From a virus: DNA of 32,861 bases. The notes beneath the pieces were generated by a model. It saw only the letters and a list, made by a program, of their open reading frames with translations, was not told the DNA's origin and searched no databases. The position numbers were made by a program, and so were the translations under genes. Below, in pieces: positions 8,977 through 32,861 of this stretch (position 1 is its first letter; each line of letters begins with the position of its first letter). The stretch spans positions 1 to 32,861 of IMG/VR virus record IMGVR_UViG_3300028844_004575. One strand, given 5' to 3'.

Positions 8977-10685
8977 TATTTCCTTTTCACTTTATGTTTG
9001 AACAACAATTTAGGCGAACTATTCATTTCTGTTTTACAGTCAACCTGAACATACTCATCGGTCTGTGTTTCTAAATTTATCACAACCTTACCACCTTCAT
9101 ATTTTATATCAAAAGGTGGTTTAGGATCACAATAATGTTCTGGTGGTTTAATTTGCGACTCACCTGTTTTTTTATTGACGATTAGAGTATGAACATCATG
9201 ACCACATCCATGAACATCTTTCCACATCTGAACTAATTGTTTTTGACCTTCTTCAGTTTCTGCTAATTTTTTCATACCAGCACCAAACCCTTTTATGTAT
9301 TCTTCTCTAAAAGCTCTTTTTCTATCTTTTTGTTCTAAATCAGTTATCCCATCTTCTTGATAATTGTTCCTGTCTCTCATTTCTTGTAGTTTAGCATCAA
9401 TAGGAGAGCCTATTTCATCTCCAAGATAAGTTTTGCCAGCAGTTTTTGTACCAGAGTTCTTCATAGTTATATCATTTGGATTACTATAAATTTTAGCAGA
9501 TATTTTCATAGTCTGTTTATTTCCATCCTTATCATCATAAACAACTAACATATCTGTAGGATCTACTTTCTCATCTATTCCATATAAGTCCATTAGTTTT
9601 GAACCACCTATACCACCGACTTGTATACTCTCTGTTACTTTAGAACCCTCAGGCAAAGATTTTTTGATAAGTTCTACCGCTGTTTTATTTTGTTCATGTG
9701 CTTCTGAATCATCATTACCAAGCTCTTGATATTTTTTTCTGAGTTCTTCATATTGTTTTTGATTCTCTTCTGAAGGATCTAATAAAGCAACAACACCAGC
9801 TTCATTATGTTTACCACTCAAATCAGCTAATGCTCTATCAGCAGAGTTATTCCTCATATTAACTTCTAATCCATTTTCTCTGATAATTCTATTTATATCT
9901 TCAGTTACAGCATCACCTTGCTTTCCACCCATAAAATGTTTATATGGAACACCCATAGCATTAGATGATATATAGATTTTTCCCTTTGATTTTTCACTAA
10001 ACTGATTTCTTTCTATTAGACCATTATCTACCAAAGATTCAACAGCTTCTATTTTTTCTTCTTCAGTTTTAGCATTTGTAAACTTTTCCCAACTCTCAAC
10101 TAATGTACTTAGAGCCTTTTTTCTATCTGGATCTTTTTCATTATCTTTAATTTTTTGTGCACTTTCAATGTAACCTTTATGGTTTTCTTGTGTCTTTTTT
10201 GAAAATGGTTTGACTTTCGATTCTTCCTCAGAATCATTTTCGCTATCATCGCTTTTTGGTCTTTCAAAGTCCTTAGATATGCCCTTGTTAGAATCTACAC
10301 CTCTATCAAATTCACTTGGTTCATCTAACTTCTCACCATCTTTCTTATCACCACCATCGTTCTGTAGTGCTTTTGCTGCAATATATGCTGGAGAGTCTTT
10401 CTCTCTATTTATAGCAGACTTGTAAGTAGTTTCTTTATCGACATCCTTACCATCTTTGTCTTTTATTTTATATTTTACCTTAGTTTCTGGATCTATCTTA
10501 TCACCTTTTTGTCTGGGTGCTTCTGATAGATTTTCTAGTAAAACATTTCTTTGAGCTACATTCCAACCAAAATCTTTTAGTACGCTTTCTAGTACTATTC
10601 TGTCTCGAATACTTTTAGGATTAGGCTTACCATCTTTTACCCTATACGCCCATTCAATTATTATATCATCTATGATATCATTCAT
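8976..10685 (-). CDS. 569-aa modular protein, possible PD-(D/E)XK nuclease-like C-terminal domain
   Basis: No confident family. Residues 1-55 form a small helical module (EWAYRVKDGKPNPK, LKDFGWN, LLENL) of a kind I associate with proteins of large marine phages. Residues about 56-190 are a highly charged Lys/Asp/Glu/Ser linker. From about 235 a folded domain follows. E295 in GKHNEAGVVALL, D378 in VDPTDMLVVY and S396-A-K398 in MKISAKIY are spaced like the Glu, Asp and x-x-Lys of PD-(D/E)XK nucleases, with Ser replacing the middle acidic residue. A late segment holds a Cys/His-containing HGCGHDVHTL near residue 485. The ATG at 10685 overlaps the polymerase stop (ATGA), with GGAG 9 nt upstream. 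Function is unproven; a restriction-like or repair nuclease is possible, and a virion protein cannot be excluded. Confidence 0.8.
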   Translation of the reverse strand: MNDIIDDIIIEWAYRVKDGKPNPKSIRDRIVLESVLKDFGWNVAQRNVLLENLSEAPRQKGDKIDPETKVKYKIKDKDGKDVDKETTYKSAINREKDSPAYIAAKALQNDGGDKKDGEKLDEPSEFDRGVDSNKGISKDFERPKSDDSENDSEEESKVKPFSKKTQENHKGYIESAQKIKDNEKDPDRKKALSTLVESWEKFTNAKTEEEKIEAVESLVDNGLIERNQFSEKSKGKIYISSNAMGVPYKHFMGGKQGDAVTEDINRIIRENGLEVNMRNNSADRALADLSGKHNEAGVVALLDPSEENQKQYEELRKKYQELGNDDSEAHEQNKTAVELIKKSLPEGSKVTESIQVGGIGGSKLMDLYGIDEKVDPTDMLVVYDDKDGNKQTMKISAKIYSNPNDITMKNSGTKTAGKTYLGDEIGSPIDAKLQEMRDRNNYQEDGITDLEQKDRKRAFREEYIKGFGAGMKKLAETEEGQKQLVQMWKDVHGCGHDVHTLIVNKKTGESQIKPPEHYCDPKPPFDIKYEGGKVVINLETQTDEYVQVDCKTEMNSSPKLLFKHKVKRK

Positions 10686-14230: not shown

Positions 14231-17200
14231 CTACCATATTGCTGGTGTACTGTCCCAATGTTCTTTTCTTTGGGCATCATCTTGATAATCATTTTTATAA
14301 GCAGTATACCCAGTATATGGATTACCATCCGCATCTCTGAATGCACTTGCTAAAGCGGCTCTAGCATCAGCCCTATTAGCATGAGAACCAAATGGGTCTT
14401 CACTATAATATGGGTCTACAAATGGATATCCTGGATTCTGCTTTGTACTTCCTTCGTTTTCAGCTATCTCTTCATTAGGAAATTCGGTAGCAAAACGAGC
14501 TGCTATAACTTGTTCATTATATTTCTGAATTCTTTTTCTTGTTGCAAAAACTGAGCTTCCTGCCATCTCTGCAGTAATGAATGTTTCTTCTTTTTCTTTA
14601 AATTTTCCAATTGTTTCGACTTGTACATTAAAGTCTCCCGCCATAGCTGTCGTTGATACGTTATGTGTAAATTTTATTTTCTTTAACAATACTATTGCTC
14701 TTTCTGATGGTTTTGGGCTTTTTACATCTCTTTGTTTTTTTCTAAGACCAGCTTTTATTTTTTTCATTATATTTGCTAATCTAACACCAAAACTTGCTGG
14801 TATGTCGCTAGTTGGAGCACCAAGCTCTTCATCTACGGTTTGTGGTATTTTATCTGGAGATTTATCAGAACCGCCGGCATCAACCATATCAGCTTCTAAT
14901 GTAGTAGTTGATTTTTCACCGCCGCTGGGATTTATATTACCATTTTTAGATATATCCCCTTCCGAAAGTTCGCCAAATCCAGAAGATAAGAAGTTGGATA
15001 CAGCACCACTAATTGCACCAAAACCACCACTAGCAATAGTACCAACGCCCGCAGCAACTCCCTTAATAGGCGTAGCTATATCAGATGTCACGCCAGCAAT
15101 CTTTTTCAAATACTCTCCGTCCTGTTCACTAACAGGCGTAACCTTTCCATCCATATTATCTATTTTTTTCTTTTTCTCTTCTCTTTCAGCTTCAGCTAAC
15201 TTTTTAGCAGCTTTGGTTTCTGCTTGATTAGTTAAAGCATTATCGAAAAAGTTAGTAACACTATCAGCTACATCACCTATCACACTAATAAAGTCTTTTA
15301 TTTTACCCAAATAATCAAACGGCATGTTTTCTGTACCGAATGCTCTTCCCATTTCTAAACTAAAAAAGTCATCTACCGCACTCTGTTTTAATTTGGTAAA
15401 CTCACTTATAGCATCAGTATTAGGCAGTCCTATGCTACTAAAAGAAGTATTCCAGCCATCTACAGTTACTTCTTGTTTTAAATCACTTATCCTAAAGAAC
15501 ATTAAAGGACCATATTCAGTACCTCCATTTACAAAATTTTTATTATATTTTGCTGGAGCATAAGAAACATTGAACAAGTTTCCTGGAGAAACACCTGAAA
15601 TACCATCTATAGTCAATGATAAACTTGCGGGATAAAATGGGGGCATACTCTTACGACCCTTTGTCCCACTACTATTCATTAATGTACTAGCGTATTTTTT
15701 TACTGTAGACTTCAGTCTCATTCTTTCTAATGGGTGACTGTCTGAGCCTTTTGGATCTACAGAATAATAAAGAAAGTCTATGTTTTGAGTTTCTGCTGTG
15801 ACAGTAACAGCTTTTTTTGCCTTCGCAGCATCTGCATTGAAAACAGGTCTTAATACAGTTTTCTCCTCCTCCTCTTGAACTGCTAGGTACATCTCCAGAG
15901 GTATCGAACCACCGCCATTATCGCCCAAAAAAGGAGAAATGGTTTGTTGCAAATATTCATTATCAATACTCTTATCTTGTGCTTTGCCGAAAGTAAGACT
16001 GCCCGCAGCTGCTGTATCAGAACTCTCATTTATCGGTTCTTCAGGTGATGTGTTACCGACTGCTCCATCAACAGCATCTGAGACACTACTAACAGCATCA
16101 GAAGCAACACTCGCAATTGAGTGTGCAGTATCAGCTGGCTTTTCAGTAACATACTGATATCTACCATCGCTAAAAATTAGAGATCTGTTCTCTGTAGGAG
16201 ATTCGTCTGTTTCTATTTTACCAGACTTTGCTGTTGGTGTTGGTGAATACTTTCTCCAATATATACGTTCACTTCTTTTTTCATCTAAGTTAGGATTAAT
16301 AAACTCAGCAAGAGTATGAACTTTTTCTTTATGATTAAAATCAGATTCTAATTTCATTTTTCTAGACTCATCTCCATATGGATATCCACCATTTGGATAT
16401 TGAGTATAGAGTCTACCTAAACCTCCGTACAGACCTTGCTCTGATTCTAAGTCCCTATCAGAATTTTGTATAGCAGCAAAGTTTTGAGCACTTCTTATCT
16501 CTATATCTGATGATGGTTCAGTATTAACTGAATTAGCTGCATAATAATATACTGCAGCGTCTCCTTTTGGTATACTCACATCAAATGTTTGATTTTTTAC
16601 TACGCTTGAAAATTCCATACTTGGAAACAGATATACACCTAAATCCGATACTTGTGCGGGATTACCTAAGTCTGATTGTAAGAATCTAGTATAAGACCCA
16701 ACACGAACAGGTGAATGATTTTTATCTACCACCAATGAATTTTCAGGATTAGAACCATCGGTAATAACATCGAATTCCCAAAAGTTAGAGAAATTAGCAC
16801 TTATCTCTGACAATACACTTTTCATAGAAGCAACGATATTAGTAGATGGTGATATACCTTCTGTATGGTAACCATCGGTTCCTTGAGTAGGACCTAAATT
16901 ATCAATATCTATTCCAAACTTTTTTTGTATAACTTCAACATTTACAAAAATATTTCTTAGATATCCATCGCCCTCTTTGGAATCAGTTGAAGTATATTCC
17001 GGATGATTGAATTGTCTAGACTTACTACCACCTACCATTGTGCTGTTTACTTCAACAAGCATATGCTCTATTTTTTGAGTTCTTGATTTTGCTGAACCTC
17101 TCATAGTACTATATTCACTTTTGAATATCAATGAATGTGATGGATTTATAGGTCTAAGTAAATTGTGATCTGGGATTCTAACGGAAGTTTTTATAGCAAC

Positions 17201-17425
17201 ACCATTTGAATCAGTATATTTTGGGTTTCCGCCTTCGTCTAACTCTACAGCAAGACTTCTAAAAGTTACTATCGGCTTTCCAGCAGCACCTACAAGTGAG
17301 ACATATTTTGAAATTATATTATCTTCAAACCAACCCCATCGAATCATTTTTACTGTAGGACCTTCGGGTGAATTGAATACTATAAAGTTCTTTCCCTTAT
17401 CAATTAATGTATTAAAAGTTCCCAT
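14231..17425 (-). CDS. Very large baseplate-region structural protein (1064 aa)
   Basis: No confident family. The N-terminus (GKNFIVFNSPEGPTVKMIRWGWFEDNIISKY...) and the region NIFVNVEVIQ with SNFWEFDVITDG read as beta-rich virion domains. MFFRISDLKQEV followed by VDGWNTSFSSIGLPN (about residues 655-685) resembles the C-terminal strand pattern of tail-hub proteins. Two low-complexity stretches follow the patterns Ser/Ala/Val (about 430-470) and Gly/Ala (about 785-825), the latter perhaps a flexible or membrane-active linker. The C-terminus is Asp/Tyr-rich, ending in TPAIW. It is third after the LysM protein in tail order, where hub or spike proteins lie in other contractile tails. GGGA lies 9 nt upstream of the ATG at 17425. 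Hub or spike function is inferred from position only. Confidence 0.85.
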   Translation of the reverse strand: MGTFNTLIDKGKNFIVFNSPEGPTVKMIRWGWFEDNIISKYVSLVGAAGKPIVTFRSLAVELDEGGNPKYTDSNGVAIKTSVRIPDHNLLRPINPSHSLIFKSEYSTMRGSAKSRTQKIEHMLVEVNSTMVGGSKSRQFNHPEYTSTDSKEGDGYLRNIFVNVEVIQKKFGIDIDNLGPTQGTDGYHTEGISPSTNIVASMKSVLSEISANFSNFWEFDVITDGSNPENSLVVDKNHSPVRVGSYTRFLQSDLGNPAQVSDLGVYLFPSMEFSSVVKNQTFDVSIPKGDAAVYYYAANSVNTEPSSDIEIRSAQNFAAIQNSDRDLESEQGLYGGLGRLYTQYPNGGYPYGDESRKMKLESDFNHKEKVHTLAEFINPNLDEKRSERIYWRKYSPTPTAKSGKIETDESPTENRSLIFSDGRYQYVTEKPADTAHSIASVASDAVSSVSDAVDGAVGNTSPEEPINESSDTAAAGSLTFGKAQDKSIDNEYLQQTISPFLGDNGGGSIPLEMYLAVQEEEEKTVLRPVFNADAAKAKKAVTVTAETQNIDFLYYSVDPKGSDSHPLERMRLKSTVKKYASTLMNSSGTKGRKSMPPFYPASLSLTIDGISGVSPGNLFNVSYAPAKYNKNFVNGGTEYGPLMFFRISDLKQEVTVDGWNTSFSSIGLPNTDAISEFTKLKQSAVDDFFSLEMGRAFGTENMPFDYLGKIKDFISVIGDVADSVTNFFDNALTNQAETKAAKKLAEAEREEKKKKIDNMDGKVTPVSEQDGEYLKKIAGVTSDIATPIKGVAAGVGTIASGGFGAISGAVSNFLSSGFGELSEGDISKNGNINPSGGEKSTTTLEADMVDAGGSDKSPDKIPQTVDEELGAPTSDIPASFGVRLANIMKKIKAGLRKKQRDVKSPKPSERAIVLLKKIKFTHNVSTTAMAGDFNVQVETIGKFKEKEETFITAEMAGSSVFATRKRIQKYNEQVIAARFATEFPNEEIAENEGSTKQNPGYPFVDPYYSEDPFGSHANRADARAALASAFRDADGNPYTGYTAYKNDYQDDAQRKEHWDSTPAIW

Positions 17426-17441
17426 TATTTAGTTTCCCATC

Positions 17442-18668
17442 CTAAAGACCCAATAACTTAGCAAGCCAAGGTTTTTTGATAACTTCTTCGTTAGTTTCTA
17501 CTACATAAGTAGATGCATCAAAACCTTCTTCTGTAACATTATCGCCAACGATAACAACTTCCTCATCATCGCCTTTCGAACTTATTATACTAATAGAAGT
17601 TTCTACAGTGTTATCATATGCATCAATATCTTCCTCGGTAATTGGATTGTCGCCTATATCTGAAAATTCAATATCTATAGCACCATTACCGTACATATGA
17701 GCTAAGACTATGTTATCTAAGTTGAGCAAAGCATTTAGTAAATTATCTTCTGTACCAGTAACCTTTGGATTATCAACATTTTGTGCAGAATTAGGATTAA
17801 GAAAAGAAAATGTTTCTGTTATCTGTCCGATGGTATCGTCAATTACATTTATAACTTTATCAGGTATTAACCCATTAGAAATTTGTTTTAGCTTACTCTC
17901 TACATCCTTTGGCAAAACAGCAGACATTCCTTGAATATCTCCTAGTCTATTATCCACACTAAATACATTACCACCTAATGATATTAATTCGGTTACACAA
18001 TCAAATCCACCATCATCTCGTAGTTTGAATGAAAAATTACTTACTTGTCCCGCAACGCCATCCATATTTCCATTTGATCTAATTATTCTTTCTAAAGGAC
18101 TTGTTTGAACATCTTGATTTATTGTTATTCTATCATCATTTAAAACTATAAAACTTTCATTATTATCCAATGTTGTTTTAGCACCCACATTACCCCATTG
18201 AACTACTATGTTTTCACCTATTGTTAAGAATGCTCCAAACTCTTCTAGTGACTCAAGCGATGGAGCAACCCATCTTACATCAGTCTGTCTAATATAACTC
18301 TGATTGTCTCCTGTAAATTCTGAAGATATAGACTTTATTCCAGCAACTGGTCTTATTCCTGTCGCACTTCCCAACTCAGTATTTCTATACGCTCCATTCC
18401 CACTACCTTTGAATCCCCAAGACATATTAATTAAATTTCCGTTGTTTACTTTTATTTCACCAGCAGATATTGCTTTGTTTTTTGTAGAATCTGCCAGATT
18501 AGTAGACATTATAGCATAATGAGTTTTAGAAGCATAATCAGCGAATACAGCATTTTGTCCAGCACCAGGAACATAAATACTCTTTGCTGATCTACTACTA
18601 AGTAACTCTCTTCTTTTGAGCTCTTCTTGTATTTCTCTTGGTATCTTACTTGTAATTGATGAAGCCAT
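17442..18668 (-). CDS. Baseplate/tail hub-like structural protein (408 aa)
   Basis: The role is inferred mainly from order. It follows a LysM-type tail protein, the position of the XkdQ/gpD-like hub in contractile-tail clusters. The N-terminus is helical (IPREIQEELKRRELL). A central stretch has YIRQTDVRWVAPSLE, ENIVVQWGNVG and NFSFKLRDDGGFDCVTELISLG, reading as hub-like beta barrels. The C-terminal third is acidic (GDDEEVVIVGDNVTEEG) and ends in KKPWLAKLLGL. The ATG at 18668 overlaps the upstream stop by one base (TAATG). No enzymatic motif is visible. I am confident it is a virion gene, less so of the exact part. Confidence 0.82.
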   Translation of the reverse strand: MASSITSKIPREIQEELKRRELLSSRSAKSIYVPGAGQNAVFADYASKTHYAIMSTNLADSTKNKAISAGEIKVNNGNLINMSWGFKGSGNGAYRNTELGSATGIRPVAGIKSISSEFTGDNQSYIRQTDVRWVAPSLESLEEFGAFLTIGENIVVQWGNVGAKTTLDNNESFIVLNDDRITINQDVQTSPLERIIRSNGNMDGVAGQVSNFSFKLRDDGGFDCVTELISLGGNVFSVDNRLGDIQGMSAVLPKDVESKLKQISNGLIPDKVINVIDDTIGQITETFSFLNPNSAQNVDNPKVTGTEDNLLNALLNLDNIVLAHMYGNGAIDIEFSDIGDNPITEEDIDAYDNTVETSISIISSKGDDEEVVIVGDNVTEEGFDASTYVVETNEEVIKKPWLAKLLGL

Positions 18669-18984: not shown

Positions 18985-21894
18985 TCAGAACCAACTGGAT
19001 ACTTTGTCTTTCAAATTTTCTATACCTTTAGTTATTCCTAACTTTTCATCGACATAAGCAGCCCCTTGGTCTATAAGAGTACCATCATGATTTATATCAA
19101 AATTGATATATTTGTTGAATATATCTTCAGCAGTTGGATTATTGACCTCAAATGGCCTAATTCCACCATAATGATCTCCGGATGTTCCTGATGGTACACC
19201 ACTACCAATGTATCGATACTGGCAACTAACAGAAATATGTTTTGGAAACTGTAGTCCCTCATCCATTTCCCAAGTTGTATTATCTTCAACAGTAATACCT
19301 ACTGTTTTAAGTATACCAGGAGCATCTACAAACATATCACCTAATGTCAAATTCATAAATGGCGTTTTCATTCTACTATTAGATGATATACTTGGATAGC
19401 ATAGCCCAATAAGATAGTTAAGTTTTTCTATTAGTATTGGAAATTCCTGCTTTGATTTAGGGTAAATTTTAAAGCTGAAACTTACATCTCTATCAGCACC
19501 TTTGTAAATATAAAGTTTATCGGGCCTTCCTATATATTTTTCTTCACCATAATCAGTTTGTATTGTATCTTGTATTCCACTAAGTATAGCTCTAAATATT
19601 ATGTATTTATTATTTACAACATCAAAGAATCTAAACTTTATAAAGTCTTTAGCAGTCAAACTATTTGAATACTTTACATTTTCACCATCTACATCTGCTC
19701 CGTATGGAGTCATATTAATTTTATCAGTACCATCATAAGCACCTGCGGAAAACCCACTACCATATGTACTTTTCTTTACTACGCCTAATTTTGGATCTAT
19801 AGTAGGAACACCTACCTTACCTTCAACACCAGCATTCCCTACAGCATCATTTATTTCTTTCTCTTTACGCCTTCTAGCAACATTATGTGTTGATGGAACA
19901 TCGCCTAATGTTGCTGTGTAGTCGATTCCAAAAATTTCTCCTGTTAAAGTGGCACTTGGAAATATACTTCCTGGAGAAATATCACCATCCTCTAAAAATC
20001 CAATAAGTTCAGCAGGACTCTTTAGTGTTTTCTCATATGAATGTAAATTGTTTAGTCTACCATATGCTAACGAAGCATATTTTTGAGCTATGTTACTTCT
20101 TGTACTGTCATAGGAATGAGCTTCTTTATTGAAAGTTCCTCCTTGAGTATTTAATATTTTGTCAGCATCTGATTTAGCAGTACTACCTTCTCCCGTACCC
20201 GCATTTTTTGTAAATGATGGTATCCCATCTACTATAGTAACTGGAGCAGAAGATAGTTCTCCAGTATATCTATTTGGATTTGAAAAGAATATTCCATTTG
20301 CTAATGGTAATGCTGGATTACCAGCTTCAAAACCCGCAGTTATTCCAAATATGCTTAGTGATAATGAAACATCAGGATTTATATCATAATTTCCCTGCAT
20401 AGCAATTCTACTACCAAACCCAAATTTTTGTGTTAGAAGATCAAAACGACTAACATTTGGATTGTCTTGTATAAACTTTGGTGTAGTTTTTCCATTTAAT
20501 AACTTTTCATATCTATTACCATTATCATCCGTATCTTTATGTCTTGTCTTGTGTTGATAAAATAATCCTTTTGCTCCTCCAATACCACCAAGTATAGAGT
20601 TCTGATGAAACCCTCTAGTCTCAAATGTTGGGTTCAATTTCTGTAAATTTTCTTGTTGGGTGAACCAAACAGAACCAGCAGTAGTCTGAGACCAGACATT
20701 GATTCTATAATAACTAGCAGCACTCATATTTATTTGAATGTCTGATAAGTATCCAAAAGCATTATCATATTCGTCTTTGAGACCATATTCGCTCTTTGGT
20801 AATTCATCACTCCAATTATTATCATAACTTCGTATGAGTATAGGATGGGTGGCATTACCCTCAAAAGGCCCCTTGTTGGACACCATTCTCATCAGAGTAG
20901 TACTGAACAGATTGTTTTCATTTAGTCCATTCGGCACATTATTGAATTGAAAAATACCATCCTTTTTACCTGGCGCATCCGAGCCATATGAAAGTAAGTT
21001 TGTTCTAATCGTAGTATCCCATAATTGACTCAAAGTAGAACTTTCTCCAGTAGCACCAATGTACTGACTATCAAATGTATTTATGAAAGGACCTAAATTA
21101 GAACTTCCTTGGTACTTAGCAGTAGTACCCATCATAGTACTAGCAACTGCGTTCGGTGAACTAATAGCTAAAACATTATGTGTATCTGTGCTGTTATTAT
21201 TATTTAAATAACTGACATAACCACTAATTGGAGTAATCATAAAGTCAACATTAGCATTAACTACTGGATTATCAAAACTAAATCCACCTGGCTGAGTATC
21301 TATAGTCCACTGACCACCATCTTGTAAATTTTGTATTCCATATAAAGTAGTTTGTGTACTAATATCAAATGGTGGATAAATAATCTCACTTTCTGTTCCA
21401 GTAGGTATAGTTCCCCATTGATTGAAAGTGTAACTTGATTCTCTTCTATACATACTATTACGATTTTCTATTGGAATTAGATCAGCATAGTAAGAACCAT
21501 TATGATTTCTTACGCCCACTACCACGTCACCATCTATTATATGAGATTGGCTTGATATACCTACATTTGGAAGTTCCCCGTACTCACCATTTTCACCATA
21601 AGCACTTCTAGTCTTAGTATTCGTTCTAGCAGCATCAGGCCAAGCAGAAGAGATAGTAGCACCTTTCATCTGATGATATCTAGATGCTAAATCTGTTTTT
21701 GGTACAAATCCAGTATGACTGCTTGTGTTATCGTCAAAGAAGTCTACTCCATTTTCTATTTGATTGTCTATAGGATTAGTTATAGTACCGCCTGTCTTAT
21801 CTGCTGAAACTTTAGTTCTGTTAGGCTGACCTTTTCTCCACAAGTCTATTTTATCTTGTATTCTTTGCTCATTAATTTCTGGATCAAATCCCAT
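18985..21894 (-). CDS. Large baseplate structural protein (969 aa)
   Basis: I do not assign a family. The N-terminal half is Asn/Gly/Ser-rich and repetitive in character, typical of virion beta-structure. The C-terminal 200 residues are more distinctive: FIKFRFFDVVNNKYIIFRAIL, GRPDKLYIYKGADRDVSFSF, LIEKLNYLIGLCYP, MNLTLGDMFVDAPGIL and a final WEMDEGLQFPKHISVS. These read like the domain of tail-tube-initiator or baseplate proteins that cap the tube. The gene sits between the tape measure (1 nt gap) and the LysM protein (23 nt gap), consistent with the tube-baseplate junction. GGAAAATAAA precedes the ATG. The long N-terminal extension may decorate the baseplate periphery. Confidence 0.85.
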   Translation of the reverse strand: MGFDPEINEQRIQDKIDLWRKGQPNRTKVSADKTGGTITNPIDNQIENGVDFFDDNTSSHTGFVPKTDLASRYHQMKGATISSAWPDAARTNTKTRSAYGENGEYGELPNVGISSQSHIIDGDVVVGVRNHNGSYYADLIPIENRNSMYRRESSYTFNQWGTIPTGTESEIIYPPFDISTQTTLYGIQNLQDGGQWTIDTQPGGFSFDNPVVNANVDFMITPISGYVSYLNNNNSTDTHNVLAISSPNAVASTMMGTTAKYQGSSNLGPFINTFDSQYIGATGESSTLSQLWDTTIRTNLLSYGSDAPGKKDGIFQFNNVPNGLNENNLFSTTLMRMVSNKGPFEGNATHPILIRSYDNNWSDELPKSEYGLKDEYDNAFGYLSDIQINMSAASYYRINVWSQTTAGSVWFTQQENLQKLNPTFETRGFHQNSILGGIGGAKGLFYQHKTRHKDTDDNGNRYEKLLNGKTTPKFIQDNPNVSRFDLLTQKFGFGSRIAMQGNYDINPDVSLSLSIFGITAGFEAGNPALPLANGIFFSNPNRYTGELSSAPVTIVDGIPSFTKNAGTGEGSTAKSDADKILNTQGGTFNKEAHSYDSTRSNIAQKYASLAYGRLNNLHSYEKTLKSPAELIGFLEDGDISPGSIFPSATLTGEIFGIDYTATLGDVPSTHNVARRRKEKEINDAVGNAGVEGKVGVPTIDPKLGVVKKSTYGSGFSAGAYDGTDKINMTPYGADVDGENVKYSNSLTAKDFIKFRFFDVVNNKYIIFRAILSGIQDTIQTDYGEEKYIGRPDKLYIYKGADRDVSFSFKIYPKSKQEFPILIEKLNYLIGLCYPSISSNSRMKTPFMNLTLGDMFVDAPGILKTVGITVEDNTTWEMDEGLQFPKHISVSCQYRYIGSGVPSGTSGDHYGGIRPFEVNNPTAEDIFNKYINFDINHDGTLIDQGAAYVDEKLGITKGIENLKDKVSSWF

Positions 21895-21895
21895 T

Positions 21896-23485
21896 TTATT
21901 TTCCCATGTTTTTTGTTACTTTTATAAGTTCATCATTTTGAGCATGCATCTTGTTCATAAGCAACATCTGTTCTGTATGATTTGATGTTAGTATTTCATT
22001 TGATTTATTAGCAGCTGATAGAGTATCTTTAGCAACAGGTGGAGTAGCACTTCCATTGACTGTGTCTGTAACACTCTCTCCTGAATTCATTTTCAGCATA
22101 TCTGAAAAAGAAAAGCCAGGAAAAATATCTTCAAGTGCCCGTTGTTGAGATCTAGTCTGAATGTTCTCTATTCCTATTTTACCTAATACATTACCAATTT
22201 CTGATTGTAGTCCTTCTAAATCATTCGCATCTGATAACTGCATCGCCCTACTCAAATCTATATTAGCTCCTTGAAATAGTGAATTTAGTCTAGCTTGATT
22301 CATCATTGTTTTTTCAATATCCATAAAACTATCTGCTAAACTATCAAACTTACTTAGTGCAACCCCCATTCTCTCACTAGCCATAGCTGCCTTAATCATA
22401 GAATCAGCACCTTTTGCTCCCGCCATAGCAAAAGAATTAGCATTATTAGCAACCATTTTCAAAACATTTGCTGTTCGTAATGAACCAGCCTCAATCATAT
22501 TGTCTTTTGCTAATAATGTATTAATATTTGTTTCTAAAGAAGCATCATTCATTAAATCCATAGTCTTTAGTAAACTACCAGCTTCAGCACCAGTTAGTCC
22601 TGTATTAGCTAATAGTTTAGCCATAGCAGTAGAAGTACCCAATGTTACTACTCGAGTATCTCTGAATGCGTCAAGTAATCCAGTAACAGCTTCTTTTCCC
22701 TGTTCAAAATTACCACCAGCAAGTTTAGCAGCTGCACCAGCCGCTTGCATGTTGACTGCTAATCTACCTGATTCTAATGTCGAAGTACCTAAGTCTTGTC
22801 TTAGTTCCTTAGTTGCTTTTACTGTACCAGCAACGAATTGAAATAGCTTCATACCAAGATATCCAAGTATTGCTACAAGCGCACCAATTCCCGTACTAGC
22901 CATCATTGTTCTAATTGTAGTCAATAACCCACCAGCTGCTTTATCTAAAGCAGCAAATGTTTTAGCTTTTACTTCAAATATTTTTTGCATCTTTGGAGTT
23001 TTTCCCATAGCGTCAGCCAACTTCTTAACTTCTTCTTCGTGTACACCAAAGTCTGTATTAGCCAATGCTGATAGTATTCCACTTTCACCTAACTCACCAG
23101 AATTTACTTGATTTAACAAATCAGCAAAAGCGTTACCAGCACCTATAGCAGCTTCATCTCCAGATTTAGCCGCTGCACTCAATGATTTAGAAAAATCATC
23201 TCCACTTCCAGCCAACTTAGACATATAGCCAATCATAGACTTACTTAGTCCTTCTATTTTCTGTGTTAGATTGAGTTGATCTGCATCAGTCTTATATTGT
23301 GCTTGTTTAAACCCTAATATTTTTTTATCACGATCTAATCTGCCCTTTTCGTATTTTTCAATTTCTTTTTCTAATTTTAATAACTTTTCGTATGTTGCTA
23401 CACGCATTTTGACGCCTTTTTCAACAGCGTTTTTTTCTATTTTAGCAGCTTCTCTTTTAGCTTTATTATATTCTTTTTGATCCAT
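21896..23485 (-). CDS. Tail tape measure protein
   Basis: Sets tail length and may be injected with the DNA. In the 529-aa product, residues 1-65 are a charged coiled coil (KAKREAAKIEKNAVEKG). Ala/Lys/Asp-rich helices follow. A hydrophobic segment at about 199-222 (GIGALVAILGYLGMKLFQFVAG) could insert in a membrane. The rest is Ala/Met/Leu-rich helix (NMQAAGAAAKLAGG, MASERMGVALSKF). This composition and its position after tube and chaperone genes identify it. T4 gp29 is 590 aa; at about 1.5 angstrom per residue this one predicts a tail near 80 nm. The start at 23485 lies 11 nt after the 66-aa gene. The ribosome site is weak (GTAAG), so coupling is likely. Confidence 0.87.
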   Translation of the reverse strand: MDQKEYNKAKREAAKIEKNAVEKGVKMRVATYEKLLKLEKEIEKYEKGRLDRDKKILGFKQAQYKTDADQLNLTQKIEGLSKSMIGYMSKLAGSGDDFSKSLSAAAKSGDEAAIGAGNAFADLLNQVNSGELGESGILSALANTDFGVHEEEVKKLADAMGKTPKMQKIFEVKAKTFAALDKAAGGLLTTIRTMMASTGIGALVAILGYLGMKLFQFVAGTVKATKELRQDLGTSTLESGRLAVNMQAAGAAAKLAGGNFEQGKEAVTGLLDAFRDTRVVTLGTSTAMAKLLANTGLTGAEAGSLLKTMDLMNDASLETNINTLLAKDNMIEAGSLRTANVLKMVANNANSFAMAGAKGADSMIKAAMASERMGVALSKFDSLADSFMDIEKTMMNQARLNSLFQGANIDLSRAMQLSDANDLEGLQSEIGNVLGKIGIENIQTRSQQRALEDIFPGFSFSDMLKMNSGESVTDTVNGSATPPVAKDTLSAANKSNEILTSNHTEQMLLMNKMHAQNDELIKVTKNMGK

Positions 23486-25575: not shown

Positions 25576-28023
25576 TTATTCAGGAAATGCAGCACCAGTC
25601 GGTAATACTGAGAAATCCAATACAATGAACTCTGCAGTTCTTGTAGGTTGGATAAATATCTGTCCAACCAATTGGTTTCTGTCAATTACATCAGGTGTAT
25701 TATTACTTTCGTCCATTACTACTTTGAAAGCACTCAATCCACTATTAGATTGAACTGATTCTAAGAACGGATTCACAATATTTAGGAATCTAGTTCTTGT
25801 AGATGAATCGTTTTGTTCAAATACTAAGAATCTACTTGACGAAGCAATAAACTTCTTCAATCTGATTAATAATCTTCGTACATTGATTCTGTCTAAAGCA
25901 GATGGTTTAGCTTGTAGTGTCTTTTGTCCAAATACCACAACTCCTTGTCCAGGAAATGTAGCAATAGGATTGACTCTACCATCATACAATCTATCTCTAT
26001 CTGTATGAGTTAATTTCTTTTTAGCCATTCTAACACTAGCTAACCCACCACGATTCAATCCAGCAGGAGCAAACCATTCGTGAGCTACACTATCTGTGAA
26101 AGCAATTACGCCAGGTATTACTACCGATGGCGGAACCCATACACCTTCACCAGTATTAGGATCATCTATCTTTACCCAAGGAAAATAAGTAGCAGCATAA
26201 TTAGTGTCTAATGTTTTGACATTACTAATAGCAGCAGCAACTGTATCACCCCAAGCAGCACCATCCATTACATAGAAAGCATCAGCTCTAGCTTCTACTT
26301 TACTGATAATATGATTAGTTACGTTTGGATGTAAACTATGTACTAATCCAGGTGTTGCTACCATATTGATATCAATCTCATCAGGATTACTAACAGCATT
26401 TACAGCTTTTTTCCAAGCAACTGAACCACTAGCTGCTGATGTACTACAATCAAATCCCATTACATTAGTAGCAGTAATATCATTACCAGTGTTTAGAACT
26501 TTATTTGGTGCTATACCATCAAATCCATACTGCATCGGAACAGCAAATTTCTGTTGTACAGAAGCGGCAGCAATCGTCAAACTAGCTGCACTGCCTACAA
26601 ATGTAGAACCATATGTAGTCTGTAATGTTGTTAGGTCAGCGCCTGTTCCAAATCCACTCATATTAGATAATAAGAAATTAGCATTATTACCTTTTACAGC
26701 CGCCTTTGGAATCGGTGACAAGTAAGAAACAGCATCATTTCTCTCTTCTTTATTGAAATGTAATGAACTCAATTTGAATCCATATGCTACTCCACCATCA
26801 TAGTTACCTTTGTTTGATGTTGATTGTTGTATCGTATTTATTGAACCAGTAGGTACAGCAGCTGTAGATATAATCGGTTCGATTACAGCAGCAAAACCAA
26901 ATGGCTGTGAAGCCTTTGAAGCCTTTAGATTATCTGGAAGATAGTCACCGACTCTGATTCTATTAGAACGATTAGCGTACTCACCATAAACAGTTACTTC
27001 ACCATCATCACTTACACTCTGAAATTGGTCTCCTATTACCTTAGCAATAAAATTAGGTGATGTAGGATCTAATACTAATTTAGAATATGATTCTAAAGAA
27101 TTTCCTATTGCATCAAATAATTCTAATCCAAATTCAGCATAATTTTCAGCTGTATTATTCACATCCGCCTGAACAACATCTTTTATGACAACATAATAGT
27201 TGTTAGTTGCTGTTCCATCTGCTCTCATATAAATTTTGAACAATTCGTTGGAATTTTGGTCTAAAATAGATGGTGTTCTAGCAGAAGTTGCTCCACTACT
27301 ACCATTTATAGTAGATACATATGTACTAGCATTTACTGTCTCAGTTCCGCTTTGAAAATCCATCTCTGATGAAGATAATACTTCAATACTCATAGATACA
27401 GTAGAGGCTACTGCGCCACCAGACAATGATTGACTAATGTGTCCTCTGAAATACTTGTATGTGTATACTGGAGCAGAAGTGCCATCAATTGTGTTTACAT
27501 TAGCATCCGATGGTACTTTATCTCCAAGATAATTAGCACTTGTAGCGTCTGATTCAGCTATGGTCAATGATGTAAGACTAGCACTAGCATTTGAACCAGC
27601 AAATCTAATATCAAATGAATTAGCCCGTGTTGCTGTTGCTGATGTCAACGAAGCAGATACAGAACCACCAGTATTATTTTTAGCTGGTAAGTAACTGGCA
27701 ACTACGTGATTTATTCCTGAGCCACTAGCAACTAAATGTATTGCATTTGCTTTGTATCCTTGTAAATATCCAACTCTGACTACGGTTACTGAACCTGCAG
27801 ACCTTAGATATTCGTTTATTGTGTAAGGCGTATAATAATCTTTGGTATATCCTCCAAAAATTGTTTTAAACTCAGAAAAAGATGATACTTGTGTTGGAAC
27901 AAATGAAGGACCTTTCAATGTAGGTCCTATTATAGCTGCTCCAATGTTAGCTACCCCAGCGGGTAGAAACGATAAGTCTTTCTCACGAGTAAATACACCA
28001 GGACTGACAATTCTCTCTGACAT
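25576..28023 (-). CDS. 18: Contractile tail sheath protein, gp18-like
   Basis: Forms the sheath that contracts around the tube. The 815-aa product starts with the sheath hallmark SPGVFTREKDLSFLPAGVANIGAAIIGPT, then FGGYTKDYYTPYTINEYL. The C-terminal domain, which makes most inter-subunit contacts, is conserved: VVFGQKTLQAKPSALDRINVRRLLIRLKK (pieces around residues 680-710), then GQIFIQPTRTAEFIVLDF. T4 gp18 is 659 aa; the extra length lies in Ser/Ala/Asn-rich beta domains between about 100 and 560, probably surface insertions. AAGGAGAAAAGAC precedes the ATG at 28023. A promoter-like element lies 39 nt upstream and a strong terminator lies downstream, so it looks like its own transcription unit. 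Confidence 0.95.
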   Translation of the reverse strand: MSERIVSPGVFTREKDLSFLPAGVANIGAAIIGPTLKGPSFVPTQVSSFSEFKTIFGGYTKDYYTPYTINEYLRSAGSVTVVRVGYLQGYKANAIHLVASGSGINHVVASYLPAKNNTGGSVSASLTSATATRANSFDIRFAGSNASASLTSLTIAESDATSANYLGDKVPSDANVNTIDGTSAPVYTYKYFRGHISQSLSGGAVASTVSMSIEVLSSSEMDFQSGTETVNASTYVSTINGSSGATSARTPSILDQNSNELFKIYMRADGTATNNYYVVIKDVVQADVNNTAENYAEFGLELFDAIGNSLESYSKLVLDPTSPNFIAKVIGDQFQSVSDDGEVTVYGEYANRSNRIRVGDYLPDNLKASKASQPFGFAAVIEPIISTAAVPTGSINTIQQSTSNKGNYDGGVAYGFKLSSLHFNKEERNDAVSYLSPIPKAAVKGNNANFLLSNMSGFGTGADLTTLQTTYGSTFVGSAASLTIAAASVQQKFAVPMQYGFDGIAPNKVLNTGNDITATNVMGFDCSTSAASGSVAWKKAVNAVSNPDEIDINMVATPGLVHSLHPNVTNHIISKVEARADAFYVMDGAAWGDTVAAAISNVKTLDTNYAATYFPWVKIDDPNTGEGVWVPPSVVIPGVIAFTDSVAHEWFAPAGLNRGGLASVRMAKKKLTHTDRDRLYDGRVNPIATFPGQGVVVFGQKTLQAKPSALDRINVRRLLIRLKKFIASSSRFLVFEQNDSSTRTRFLNIVNPFLESVQSNSGLSAFKVVMDESNNTPDVIDRNQLVGQIFIQPTRTAEFIVLDFSVLPTGAAFPE

Positions 28024-28423: not shown

Positions 28424-30631
28424 TTATTTTTTTTCATTAAAGAAGAACACTTGATACAATCTAGAATTATCTATGGATTCTCCAAAGTAAGAACCTGCTG
28501 TATGTAAATGTCTCCCATTCCATAAAATTAATCTGTTATAGACATTAGCAATATCGTCTATCTTTTCAAATGGATGTGTATCCCATTGTGCCTGATTACC
28601 TATAAATACATCTTCGAGACCTTCTTGTCTCATCTTCTTGCCAGTCTCTTTATGTTTCATCAACCAAGTGCCTGTTCTTGGTGGTGCATCAGGACTTAAA
28701 AATATTATACCAGCCCAATCTGTAGCATCACAATGTACTACCTGACCAGTTTCTGCTGGTGACCATTGATAGCACCCATGCGTTCCACCATCACCAGCCC
28801 ATTCGCTATCATCTGTTTTTATTCCTAACAATTTTTCAAATATTGGTCTGTAAATATCTCCATGTGGATATGGTTTAGACCTAATACCAACCGAACCCCT
28901 TTTTTTATACTCATCTGACATACTTAGTGCTAACTCTCTAACCTCATCAGGATTTTCTAAAAAATTATCAACTACAACGATAGTTGGTTCATTATCGGTA
29001 TTTACTTTAGGTAGTAAAGTTTTTTTTTCATAGATATCACCACCCCATTTAGAAGTTTCGTTTATTTTTATTATATCTTTCTCTAACGAAATTTCATCAT
29101 TTAGACCTGCTTGGTTATCAATCAATTTATCACCTAAAGATTTATTAGCCAATTTATCTTTTATTGGTATAGCATTTTCACATCCATTACACAACGAAAA
29201 ACTTTGATTATTATCAGGAATACTATCTTCAAATGATTGTTCATATAAGTTACCTGTAATATGTTTTAGTCCATAGTCCATACAACAAAGAGACACATCT
29301 CCATTTGGTAATAAAATATTATGATATAAATCTTCGACACATCCACAAGTAAGTTCCCCTTCAACATAATTTTCAGAGTTGTACTCAGAAGCATCCCTAA
29401 CTCTATCCATAACTTTTCTTAGTTCCGGCTTCATTTGAGCTTCGCCCTTCAAATTACCAGCTCTAGACCACATTACTGGTATATGGATATCCTCTTTTTT
29501 CCAAATGCCTAATTTTTCTACTTCTTCATGTACATCTCCCATAGACATTAGGTAAAAACTACTAAATTTAGCCTTTTTTATAGCTTTCAGTACACTTATA
29601 TACCTTTTTGTTATAGGATGTTTTGCTAAATGTTCTTTATCTGGTAAATGTAATGTAAATCCGCTATTAGGACCGTCATCAAATGGTATATGTTTTATTT
29701 TTTCTACATCATCTAATGTCATACCTATACCAGTAGTAAATGCTGCAATAGGATGTCCCTTTTCATAAGCATAAATCATCATATCAGAGCAATGCTTATT
29801 CATAAATGGTTCTATAAAGCCTGAAAATATAATTCTCACATCATTAGGAACTTTATCAATAGCTTTTTTGAAATCAGCCATAGTCATAAATCTCATCTCA
29901 TCAGTATATGATTTTTTTAGTATTTCTTGTGGACAAAATACACAATCTACAACACATCCCTTAGTAGGTATTACAGTTGTTATCTCTAATGTTGGGTAAT
30001 CAGTTACAGCCCATTTTGGTTTTTTTGGTTCTATATCTACTATCTTAGGTTCTTCTATTTTATTATTTTTTTCAGGCCACCCACAGTTATTTAGGTTGTT
30101 TACGACAAGTTCGTTATAAAACTCAGACATTTCATAATTTATATGCAGGTCATAAAGGATTTCTTTTGACTCTTCTATCTTCCAACTATGCCAAGCGTTT
30201 ATGGCTTTTTGAAATACAGCTTTATAATGTTCATACTCAAATGGTAGAGATGTTACCCTTTTTGAATTATCTTTATACTCAATTGATATATTAGCATAAG
30301 CATATGCCTGAAATGGCTCTTCTATTTCAAATTCTCTACATAAAAGAAAATAAGCTTCAGGTCTTTTTGGTTTTAGAGCAACTGCGTGATATAACGAAAC
30401 TTTATTATGCGAACTTCTATTTCCTTGTAGAAAAAAACAATTTGCTAAAAGTAAAAGACTTTCATATACAACATCATCATCTTTAGATGTTTCAGCTATT
30501 CTATTTAGGTATGATACTGCTGAAGCATATTGCTGTATATCGAAATAAGCCTTAGCCAGCTCCAACTGAATTTCAATACCAGTAGTATCTATACTGTATT
30601 GCTGTAATAATTTTGTTATCGTATTATTCAT
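28424..30631 (-). CDS. TPR - radical SAM - SPASM-like - 2OG-oxygenase-like (DUF6445-type) fusion protein
   Basis: Four regions are visible in the 735-aa protein. Residues about 20-125 are TPR-like helices (IQLELAKAYFDIQQYASAVSYL; KPKRPEAYFLL), of the kind often fused to carbohydrate enzymes in marine viruses. Residues about 215-420 are a radical SAM core with C226-xxx-C230-xx-C233, which would bind a 4Fe-4S cluster and cleave S-adenosylmethionine. A Cys-rich SPASM-like region follows (C429, C431, C449, C450, C481, C484, around NILLPNGDVSLCC). The C-terminal 190 residues look like a 2OG-Fe(II) fold of DUF6445 type: H633-x-D635, H708 or H710 (WNGRHLHTAGS), and R724 near the end. The start overlaps the beta-propeller gene stop (ATGA). 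The substrate is unknown; peptide or glycan modification of the virion or host surface is a guess. Confidence 0.85.
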   Translation of the reverse strand: MNNTITKLLQQYSIDTTGIEIQLELAKAYFDIQQYASAVSYLNRIAETSKDDDVVYESLLLLANCFFLQGNRSSHNKVSLYHAVALKPKRPEAYFLLCREFEIEEPFQAYAYANISIEYKDNSKRVTSLPFEYEHYKAVFQKAINAWHSWKIEESKEILYDLHINYEMSEFYNELVVNNLNNCGWPEKNNKIEEPKIVDIEPKKPKWAVTDYPTLEITTVIPTKGCVVDCVFCPQEILKKSYTDEMRFMTMADFKKAIDKVPNDVRIIFSGFIEPFMNKHCSDMMIYAYEKGHPIAAFTTGIGMTLDDVEKIKHIPFDDGPNSGFTLHLPDKEHLAKHPITKRYISVLKAIKKAKFSSFYLMSMGDVHEEVEKLGIWKKEDIHIPVMWSRAGNLKGEAQMKPELRKVMDRVRDASEYNSENYVEGELTCGCVEDLYHNILLPNGDVSLCCMDYGLKHITGNLYEQSFEDSIPDNNQSFSLCNGCENAIPIKDKLANKSLGDKLIDNQAGLNDEISLEKDIIKINETSKWGGDIYEKKTLLPKVNTDNEPTIVVVDNFLENPDEVRELALSMSDEYKKRGSVGIRSKPYPHGDIYRPIFEKLLGIKTDDSEWAGDGGTHGCYQWSPAETGQVVHCDATDWAGIIFLSPDAPPRTGTWLMKHKETGKKMRQEGLEDVFIGNQAQWDTHPFEKIDDIANVYNRLILWNGRHLHTAGSYFGESIDNSRLYQVFFFNEKK

Positions 30632-31644
30632 ACACTATATTCCAAATTCTTATCAAAAAAGTTATCAAGAACCTTTTCATTTATCTGTAGCATGTGAGCT
30701 GAATTATCTTCGAACCCAAATGTTATATAAAAGTCATCTCCTAACTTATCCATACCACAGCAAAATTCAATCTGACCATCCATAAAAGTAAATTGTTTAG
30801 ATACCCTTTGTACTACGAAATCTTTATCCCATTGTACAAGTCTGTGACTATAAATAGCATCTTTGTTTTCAGCACACCTATCTTCAAATCTCCACCAATT
30901 AGTATCATGTACTATAGCAAAAAATCCATCATTATGTTTTATAATTTGTGAAGAGCCTCTCATATTTCCATCAATATCTATCTTTTTCCCTTCATATACC
31001 AATTCACATTTTCCTGTTTTTGGATTAGCTTTGACTAATTTAGTAGGATTAGCATCCATAACAAAATGATATGGTAAGTCCCTAACAGGCATCCAATTTT
31101 TTTCACAATAAGAGTTTGGATCTGTAGGGTGTTCTATTCTAACTCTACTAATTTCAGTTGGATGTGAAGATATTTTTTTCAACTCTGATAATTCCATTCT
31201 TCCTTGTCCATTATCTGTAGTATCTCTACGGACACCTGTAATATAGACTTTATCATTCCAATTTACTAACCTACCATCTTCTAATCCAGCAAATGTCCAT
31301 TTGGATTCAACATCTAATTCCATATTTATTTTATTGAATTTAGTCGAATTACTCCACTTTGCTAAAAAGTTATCTGTAACTAATCTAGCATCATTTTCAG
31401 GATGTACATATGTCAAAGGACCCCATCTTGAAGAATATCTACCACCTTCTTCCATCCAACCTTTAGCACCAATAGAATGATATAATGTGTAGTTTAGCAT
31501 TCTTATATTGATATATAAAAAGTCATCTATATTCAGTATGCTAGGATTGGCAATTCCAGTTCCATTTGTATCTGAACTGTCTATAATCAAAGGATGGTTT
31601 ATGCCCAGCTTTGATATCGATTCAATATTCATAAAAGATTTCAT
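30628..31644 (-). CDS. Five-bladed beta-propeller protein, GH130/GH43-like
   Basis: The 338-aa product follows the pattern of glycoside phosphorylase/hydrolase propellers: NPSIL (33-37), GLEDGRL (120-126), a Cys-Glu-Lys-Asn-Trp turn (EKNW 181-184), GNMRGSSQ (226-233), YSHR (265-268) and IEFCCGM (292-298). GH130-type enzymes cleave beta-mannosides by phosphorolysis; whether this one is active is not provable here. There is no signal peptide. A GAGG site lies upstream of the ATG at 31644, with a hairpin-forming AT element before it. The stop overlaps the start of the radical SAM fusion, so the two are coupled. Lying between fibre and sheath genes, the pair may modify a glycan on the virion or act on host surface sugars. 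Confidence 0.8.
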   Translation of the reverse strand: MKSFMNIESISKLGINHPLIIDSSDTNGTGIANPSILNIDDFLYINIRMLNYTLYHSIGAKGWMEEGGRYSSRWGPLTYVHPENDARLVTDNFLAKWSNSTKFNKINMELDVESKWTFAGLEDGRLVNWNDKVYITGVRRDTTDNGQGRMELSELKKISSHPTEISRVRIEHPTDPNSYCEKNWMPVRDLPYHFVMDANPTKLVKANPKTGKCELVYEGKKIDIDGNMRGSSQIIKHNDGFFAIVHDTNWWRFEDRCAENKDAIYSHRLVQWDKDFVVQRVSKQFTFMDGQIEFCCGMDKLGDDFYITFGFEDNSAHMLQINEKVLDNFFDKNLEYSV

Positions 31645-31711: not shown

Positions 31712-31957
31712 TTAGTAAGAACCACTAACATCATTTCCTGCCCAAAATACATTACATTCAGGACAAAATGAGCCTGTTATAAAGTCTCCTATCTCTTCAT
31801 CATCGCTATCCATATCGTGAGTTGAAGATATTTTTAGTAATGAACCTGAAGTCGCTCCTTTTGTACTAATGATACTATAATCTTCTGTTCTACATATGTA
31901 TATTGATTCGGATAATTGCGTTGTTCCATCGCAACTCCCACTATGTATTAGACTCAT
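31712..31957 (-). CDS. Small protein with CxxC, unknown
   Basis: This 81-aa product is not recognised. It is Ser/Thr/Asp-rich with short beta-like stretches (ESIYICRTEDYSIIST) and a C-terminal CPEC motif (GSFCPECNVFWAGND). Two further Cys (SGSC, YIC) could complete a metal site. AGGATAATGAT provides the ribosome site for the ATG at 31957, 4 nt after the fibre-like gene. A fibre-associated or capping role is possible from position alone. Confidence 0.7.
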   Translation of the reverse strand: MSLIHSGSCDGTTQLSESIYICRTEDYSIISTKGATSGSLLKISSTHDMDSDDEEIGDFITGSFCPECNVFWAGNDVSGSY

Positions 31958-31961
31958 ATCA

Positions 31962-32762
31962 TTATCCTGTTATGTAAATGCCTAAGAAAAGAGTACCCAT
32001 ATTTGATCCGTAGCCATAGCCTTCATAAGTCATGGTATTAGAAGAAAAAGTAATTTCAGGAAACCTTAGATAAACATCTTTGTTAGAACCAGCACCACTT
32101 GATTCATAATAAAGACCATCTGCACTTACTCCTGTTCCACTTGACGGAGGTGTACCATTACGTTGATTCCATCTTCCTGCCGTAGTTGCATTAGCGATTT
32201 GAATCCATGTAGAGCTGTGATTGTATGCTGTATTAGTGGTTAGGGATGTTGTTTGAATACCATTGACTCCTGATGTAGAAAATGATTTGAATACAAGACC
32301 ACCATTGTAAATTAGTCTTTTTAGCTGAGCATCAGATCTAAAAGATGTTCCTGACTCAAATCTAAAGAAAATATGACCTGTCGCGCCGATGAGTGATTCA
32401 CCTACATAAGCTGCTGATGATAAGTCTATATTCGAAACGGTTACTTGTCTAGTACCTTGATCTCCTGAGAACATTTGGGTATTACTACTATTACCATAAG
32501 AGCCTACTGACGGGCCACCATCATGATCATAACCATAAAACTCACTCATTGAGTATGGAGCTACTTGAGCCTGTACACCATTACCACCACCACTACCTTT
32601 CAAATTTATATTTCCATTACTACTGTCATCGTGACTATTACTAGAAAGTCCTCTTAGACTAAAATTGCTCTCACCATCTGTATTATTAGAAGTATAATCA
32701 CTATCATTTTTTTCAGACCAAATACCTAGCATTGATATTGTACCGCTACCAGGAACCGCCAT
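31962..32762 (-). CDS. Fibre-like/adhesin-like virion protein (266 aa)
   Basis: The N-terminus, AVPGSGTISMLGIWSEKND, and the later VAPYSMSEFYGYDHDGG follow a pattern common in marine phage tail-fibre-associated proteins (xGxISMLxI...; PYxMSEFYG). The middle is Gly/Asn/Ser-rich. The remainder is predicted beta-sandwich (HIFFRFESGTSF, VYLRFPEITFS) ending in GTLFLGIYITG. It could be a receptor-binding tip or a fibre adaptor. GAGGAG lies 9 nt before the ATG at 32762, and the start overlaps the stop of the S74-type fibre by one base. Confidence 0.82.
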   Translation of the reverse strand: MAVPGSGTISMLGIWSEKNDSDYTSNNTDGESNFSLRGLSSNSHDDSSNGNINLKGSGGGNGVQAQVAPYSMSEFYGYDHDGGPSVGSYGNSSNTQMFSGDQGTRQVTVSNIDLSSAAYVGESLIGATGHIFFRFESGTSFRSDAQLKRLIYNGGLVFKSFSTSGVNGIQTTSLTTNTAYNHSSTWIQIANATTAGRWNQRNGTPPSSGTGVSADGLYYESSGAGSNKDVYLRFPEITFSSNTMTYEGYGYGSNMGTLFLGIYITG

Positions 32763-32861
32763 TATTTCAACTCCTCTAATTCTCGTCTAAGTTCATCGAT
32801 TTGTTTTTGTTGTTCTTTTATAGACTCTATTAGTAATGGAACTATCTTATCATATTTGACT
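32762..32861 (-). CDS. C-terminal end of a tail fibre with S74-type intramolecular chaperone (partial)
   Basis: The frame is open from the window edge to the TAA at 32764-32762 (32 codons). It encodes VKYDKIVPLLIESIKEQQ followed by a charged helix ending ELEELK. The pattern (Y-IVPLLIESIKEQQKxI-ELR) is the trimeric coiled-coil end of the peptidase S74 chaperone found at the C-terminus of phage fibres and endosialidases, which is cleaved off after the trimer folds. The rest of the gene, including the cleavage Ser, lies beyond 32861. Confidence 0.8.
   Translation of the reverse strand, partial: VKYDKIVPLLIESIKEQQKQIDELRRELEELK

Follow-up and report, generated by a model that had tools for sequence, protein, structure and literature searches.

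A GH130-like propeller gene and a TPR, radical-SAM and DUF6445 fusion gene form one configuration of a modular viral cassette

A coupled gene pair and the cassette to which it belongs

The stretch of DNA analysed here, hereafter the window, comprises positions 1 to 32,861 (32,861 nucleotides) of the IMG/VR virus record IMGVR_UViG_3300028844_004575, and its subject is a pair of coupled genes on the minus strand. The upstream gene encodes a GH130-like five-bladed propeller protein of 338 aa (30628..31644), and the downstream gene (28424..30631) encodes, in a single frame, a 735-aa protein in which a TPR module, a radical-SAM module with a short SPASM (twitch-like) part and a DUF6445 module resembling 2-oxoglutarate (2OG) oxygenases are fused. 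The pair represents one of the forms that a modular viral cassette takes: across many viral contigs, propeller, TPR, radical-SAM/twitch, DUF6445, FkbM and glycosyltransferase modules are shown to be shuffled and fused and to be tightly linked. The folds and the linkage of the modules are well supported. The cassette may serve to decorate virion fibres by glycan building together with oxidation or methylation, a reading that builds on predicted activities and a predicted substrate and to which we give an even chance. Both open reading frames (ORFs) and their ATGA stop-start overlap (30628..30631, minus strand) are as described in an earlier note made from the sequence alone, and its reading of TPR, radical-SAM, SPASM-like and 2OG-oxygenase-like domains within one frame was right.

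Recurrence, linkage and shuffling of the modules

The cassette was followed in three scans, the best 80 stretches of each being analysed: one for the propeller (at least 598 confirmed stretches), one with a radical-SAM profile (334 stretches matched, 266 confirmed) and one for the tail sheath as control. Near-duplicates were removed by shared 5-mers before counting, with cut-offs that differ between counts; the distinct loci are 65 for the collagen permutation described below (61 with upstream genes), 63 for the gene-overlap count, and 56 propeller (from the propeller scan only), 41 radical-SAM and 56 tail-sheath loci for linkage. The window supplied the seeds for the module profiles, which were then iterated on propeller loci; linkage is for this reason tested more fairly by the radical-SAM and sheath sets, although the former includes contigs found earlier.

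A TPR module was present within 8 genes of the propeller in 56/56 propeller loci and was adjacent or fused in 51 of them, while DUF6445 was found within the same distance in 22/56 and radical SAM in 8/56. Approached from the radical-SAM side, 38 of the 41 loci had the propeller, 39 the TPR module and 25 DUF6445, and in the three loci lacking the propeller (L009, L166 and L184) the gene starts at a contig end or at most 128 bases from it. Among the tail-sheath control loci, propeller, TPR and DUF6445 were each found in 1/56, all in the same relative of the window (L188). The gene following the propeller lies on the same strand in 63 distinct loci and overlaps it in 58 of these, as compared to 287 of 782 other same-strand pairs.

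Pfam matches in the partner genes (65 distinct of 90) were to TPR families, most commonly TPR_17 (36), to FkbM methyltransferase and Methyltransf_24 (12 each), to radical SAM, SPASM and DUF6445 (10 each), and to GT17 (4), GT2 (3) and GT25 (3). The genes after the partner (n = 76) included DUF6445 (14), GT2 (11), GT17 (5), collagen (5), FkbM (4) and GT25 (2), and single GDP-mannose dehydratase-like genes were also found near the cassette. What these genes have in common is the building and capping of sugars. Two-module fusions join the propeller to DUF6445 (L016), to TPR (L024) and to radical SAM (L026), the last combination occurring in 6/41 radical-SAM loci, and FkbM is found in propeller-FkbM-radical SAM-SPASM (L119), radical SAM-SPASM-FkbM (L140) and TPR-FkbM-radical SAM (L073) proteins.

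The module order of the window recurs in L005 and L006 (both 100%), L008 (82%), L007 (72%) and L111 (84%, radical-SAM part), and among the radical-SAM loci it accounts for 4/41, one of them a 100% sister. The presence of the same fusion in the separate contigs L007, L008 and L111, at 72-84% identity, excludes the possibility raised in the earlier note that two genes had been joined by an assembly error. The sister contig L012 has TPR (58% identity) and DUF6445 (84%) without the radical-SAM part between them, which makes that part an optional module. The layout had been regarded as one without described precedent, and no description of the cassette was found among open-licence papers judged by title and abstract start; the fusion itself is one of the arrangements in which a shuffled cassette recurs.

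In two Synechococcus phage isolates, DSL-LC02 (L002, 14031-17741) and S-SCSM2R (L003, 14031-16863), the cassette is hidden under scattered labels, namely beta-mannosyltransferase, FkbM methyltransferase (twice), MGP protein and CcmH/NrfG.

The propeller protein

The suggestion of a GH130-like propeller was borne out by the model fold, the Pfam match being weak. The structure model (pLDDT 87.2, pTM 0.88) has the five-bladed GH130 propeller fold, GH130 enzymes ranked best in Foldseek (5b0p, E 2.0e-10), and VIA-align gave Z 24.1 against GH130 5ay9 (root mean square deviation, rmsd, 3.0; 272 aligned) and Z 18.5 against the MPT-2 mannosyltransferase 6q4z, with GH43 8hcj level at 18.2. Fold and active-site columns are common to the window protein and the GH130 beta-mannoside phosphorylases and mannosidases; the fold also resembles that of the Leishmania MPT mannosyltransferases of family GT108, a match tied with GH43 at Z about 18. 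Unlike either group, the window propeller is viral, shares 10-16% identity with them, falls under the Pfam cut-off and is coupled to a TPR partner. The Pfam GH130 family (PF04041) scored 12.5 bits on it against a curated cut-off of 26, matched 25/59 of its relatives at E<=0.1 (best 4.8e-6) and reached 31.3 bits on the bacterial relative L107. PDB sequence searches with the propeller gave no credible match, and when A3 was compared with individual GH130 sequences by hhalign, all alignments were short and of low probability.

When aligned by MAFFT with four GH130 proteins, N33, R48, E122, D123, R125, K182, Y265 and D313 were column-matched in 4/4 and H246 in 3/4. A catalytic Asp beside Glu or Tyr and residues of the -1 subsite are accordingly present, with E122-D123, N33 and D313 in GH130 columns. 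In the GH130 protein BT3780, according to the available passages of the source (PMC4599007), N74, R89, E141, D142 and D363 contact sugar or are required for activity, and these were paired with window residues by motif. For the phosphate-binding trio of the phosphorylases there are two candidates for three positions, K182 and H246 aligning with most GH130 rows and R149 with 1/4. A hydrolase is not the favoured prediction from the alignment, because K182 and H246 align with GH130 sequences that retain the K and mostly the H.

The fusion protein

The structure model of the fusion protein (pLDDT 79.3, pTM 0.48) is confident for the TPR helices (3-182), which make up a module of residues about 1-183 (30083..30631, minus strand) that scores just under the cut-off for Pfam TPR_19 (21.3 bits, cut-off 25). 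The TPR superhelix is a common arrangement, VIA-align giving Z 17.2 for 3gw4 and 16.7 for O-GlcNAc transferase among many TPR proteins, and the TPR part matches the tail of a PHROG named beta-1,4-glycosyltransferase (E 2.7e-5).

The radical-SAM module occupies residues about 206-398 (29438..30016, minus strand) and belongs to the superfamily by Pfam PF04055 on residues 220-365 (37.4 bits, cut-off 29.5, E 3.7e-9). The CxxxCxxC motif noted earlier is present as C226, C230 and C233 (29933-29956, minus strand). It is followed at residues about 414-489 (29165..29392, minus strand) by the short SPASM part with cysteines 429, 431, 449, 450, 481 and 484. Pfam SPASM (PF13186) gives 21.0 bits on the window fusion against a cut-off of 21.5, which the relatives L140 (24.5) and L119 (23.0) pass. 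Invariant in 12 radical-SAM modules are C226, C230 and C233 as well as C429, C449, C450, C481 and C484. Residues 204-488 align with BtrN (4m7t) at Z 16.5 (rmsd 3.4, 215 aligned, 18% identity), showing a radical-SAM fold with a one-cluster twitch domain, and at E<=0.01 the only PDB entries matched by a profile of the 12 modules are two of BtrN (0.009 and 0.0098). Another match ranked by Foldseek is anSMEcpe (4k37, E 3.0e-5), a SPASM enzyme that oxidises peptides. The description as SPASM-like is refined, as judged from model and sequence, to a short-SPASM (twitch-like) module closest to BtrN. The CX3CX2C motif and one auxiliary cysteine set are common to the window module and BtrN, the radical-SAM dehydrogenase of butirosin biosynthesis; unlike BtrN, the module is fused to TPR and DUF6445 and has adjacent cysteines, 449 and 450, in its auxiliary part. 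BtrN withdraws two electrons from a cyclitol and carries a single auxiliary cluster, as stated in the accessible part of the source (PMC9012708). By this resemblance, sugar-alcohol oxidation would be a plausible activity of the radical-SAM part.

The DUF6445 module, residues about 544-732 (28436..29002, minus strand), belongs to Pfam DUF6445 (PF20043; 30 bits, cut-off 24). The HxD...H motif seen near H633 by the earlier note, which named a missing metal triad as grounds for refuting its reading, is found as H633xD635...H710 with R724 downstream, a 2OG-Fe(II) triad plus Arg that is invariant across 22/22 DUF6445 modules, PF20043 being recovered in all 22. In the model the region is strand-rich, and the fold lists for the whole fusion are filled by TPR. 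Residues 546-734 match PHROG 1644, named 'minor coat protein' (E 1.7e-26). The module shares family membership with these cyanophage proteins and differs from them in its fusion to TPR and radical SAM. PDB sequence searches with DUF6445 gave no credible match.

A defence system was rejected as an identity for these proteins: the PADLOC matches to viperin in the radical-SAM region (weak, window E 3.3e-4) and to mads_2 in the methyltransferase part of L119 (E 2.4e-6) were taken as general similarity.

Collagen-like fibre genes near the cassette

The pair stands between fibre and sheath genes, as the earlier note had it, with the tail-sheath gene at 25576-28023, downstream of the fusion gene, and the 3' end of a collagen-like fibre gene at the right edge (32762..32861, minus strand). 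The fibre gene was identified through the sister contig L006, which differs from the window in 2/12435 overlapping bases and extends beyond its right edge. In L006 the gene, which ends at window position 32762, encodes at least 1490 aa with 191 consecutive Gly-X-Y triplets, Y being Thr in 94/191 and Gln in 68/191, and its end resembles a fibre chaperone.

With collagen-like defined as a run of at least 8 Gly-X-Y triplets, such a gene was found at most 3 genes upstream in 22/61 loci, compared with a mean of 8.8 and a maximum of 17 in 2000 permutations of propeller positions. By slot, collagen-like genes fill 28/160 of positions -1 to -3 and 7/184 of positions +1 to +3, and the Pfam family seen most often in the nearest upstream genes is Collagen (14/58). 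Within 8 genes, a collagen-like gene was present in 29/56 propeller loci and 5/56 sheath loci (Fisher p 1e-6).

Proposed function and alternatives

The modules probably decorate the phage's own fibres, or else the host surface, because they travel together and often lie beside collagen-like genes. Of the guesses made in the earlier note, the better one was that a peptide or glycan is modified, on the virion or on the host surface; the chief rival to fibres as the target is the host surface. If fibres are decorated, the TPR part would bind the acceptor protein, by analogy with the TPRs of O-GlcNAc transferase, and the propeller, which keeps the GH130 sugar-binding and general-acid residues, could form a mannoside-like link. 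The BtrN-like radical-SAM part would then remove two electrons from a sugar or side-chain alcohol, one of them passing to the auxiliary cluster, the DUF6445 part might hydroxylate peptide or glycan using Fe(II), 2OG and O2, and FkbM domains, where encoded, would O-methylate. The likely substrate would be the phage's own collagen-like (or other) fibre, gaining stability or an altered surface. The fully specified version, a combinatorial toolkit whose GH130-like transferase, BtrN-like radical-SAM dehydrogenase and DUF6445 dioxygenase would work one after another on the collagen-like fibres of the virion, with shuffling of the modules diversifying the phage surface, is put forward tentatively, as possible and rather doubtful.

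Several observations weigh against fibre decoration. No collagen-like gene lies within 8 genes in 27/56 propeller loci and 25/41 radical-SAM loci, many loci being truncated at contig boundaries. The cassette of the isolate S-SCSM2R is beside nrdA, nrdB, a ligase and a gene labelled baseplate wedge, its nearest collagen-like gene being about 6 kb off on the opposite strand, and that of DSL-LC02 lies between collagen-like and tail fibre genes that are both on the opposite strand. T and Q are common at Y in phage collagens, so the composition of the L006 repeat proves nothing. It is also odd that O2-labile and O2-using parts should be in a single protein, and activities and substrate are assigned by prediction. 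Finally, the methanogen virus vir524 (L004, BK063669.1) has a stand-alone radical-SAM relative after a head-morphogenesis gene (7989-8729), and the 16.6 kb covered there contain neither a propeller nor a TPR module; the radical-SAM family at large is not tied to the cassette.

The main rival is that during infection the cassette alters the glycans of the host surface, O-chain or capsule, and so excludes other phages, its proximity to fibres reflecting a host-recognition island; we take this possibility seriously while holding it less likely. Host-recognition clusters of pelagimyophages with fibres, glycosyltransferases and radical-SAM cassettes are interpreted as changing the host O-chain in the passages available (PMC7029224), and the GT2, GT17, GT25 and FkbM domains and GDP-mannose dehydratase-like genes nearby agree with this. 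The excess of collagen-like genes upstream over downstream of the propeller speaks for fibres, and the TPR module in every counted propeller locus suggests a protein acceptor, although TPRs bind many things. Radical SAM and DUF6445 might instead modify a peptide side chain directly, through anSME-like oxidation and hydroxylation, with the glycan genes as mere neighbours; the TPR and DUF6445 parts are compatible with a protein substrate and anSMEcpe is in the Foldseek ranking. BtrN, however, scores better in VIA-align and is the sole profile match in the PDB at E<=0.01, and the propeller-radical SAM fusions tie the radical-SAM part to sugar chemistry, which makes this explanation improbable.

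The rewired host metabolism that the earlier note had offered as an alternative is disfavoured, since the modules keep company with glycosyltransferases, with FkbM methyltransferases and, often, with collagen-like genes. One form of it, a captured heme-type or other host-metabolism gene such as AhbD, draws on the NCBIfam AhbD match of the radical-SAM part (E 3.7e-5) and on the report, in the accessible part of the source, of viral 'ahbD' genes (PMC9301287). That match is at 23.3 bits against a cut-off of 500, and linkage to the propeller in 38/41 loci is ill-suited to heme synthesis; we regard such an origin as very improbable indeed.

Relation to known systems and significance

Phage-encoded surface decoration is already known, and it is the enzyme set that is unusual here. 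Hydroxylation and glycosylation of collagen are exemplified by mimivirus L230 and Bacillus BclA, in which, as proposed for the cassette, an oxygenase and sugar transfer act on Gly-X-Y repeats. The cassette differs from these systems in its enzyme families and its added radical-SAM step, and its link to fibres is by neighbourhood only. Like the pelagimyophage cluster, it brings radical-SAM genes together with fibres and glycosyltransferases within a single variable island, whereas the propeller, TPR and DUF6445 parts are not named in the passages available (PMC7029224). For Baltic viruses, the accessible part of another paper reports 261 viral 'ahbD' genes, radical-SAM and SPASM domains together on three contigs only, and viral prolyl hydroxylase genes (PMC9301287). 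Judging from the weak AhbD match of the module, some of these 'ahbD' genes may be the radical-SAM part of this cassette.

If fibre decoration is correct, many viruses would devote a line of enzymes to their own fibres, as the numbers of confirmed propeller and radical-SAM stretches suggest, and radical-SAM chemistry would be brought to the virion as a modification of the virus particle. DUF6445 would gain a setting, and the labels 'minor coat protein', 'FkbM family methyltransferase', 'CcmH/NrfG' and perhaps viral 'ahbD' would be corrected. Two isolated cyanophages carry the cassette, which makes the fibre-decoration reading testable.

Other features of the window and cellular relatives

Between the fibre gene and the cassette, on the minus strand, are a gene for a 266-aa protein with no Pfam match (31962..32762) and, directly upstream of the propeller, an 81-aa ORF (31712..31957), the equivalent place in L012 also holding an 81-aa ORF. 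No tRNA genes were found in the window. Five large window ORFs (8976-10685, 14231-17425, 17442-18668, 18985-21894 and 21896-23485) gave no PHROG match at E 0.001.

Relatives were found on 18 bacterial or archaeal contigs, mostly of metagenome-assembled genomes (MAGs). The propeller appears to be mainly viral in the data searched, since its profile matched 1/118 and 2/150 of the genomes sampled from two phyla, centre genomes included. Among distant propellers of bacteria, the one in L102 is fused to GT25, the one in L101 to GT2 together with a sugar-binding DXD region, and the one in L105 has a GT2-TPR neighbour. On a 260-kb Ignavibacteriae MAG contig (L107, 4200-8997) a DUF6445 module, TPR genes and a two-propeller protein are clustered, possibly a bacterial version of the cassette. 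L092-L099 are MAG contigs from several phyla that contain close propeller relatives (35-44% identity), every one of them followed by a TPR gene, and they look like viral contigs binned with bacteria.

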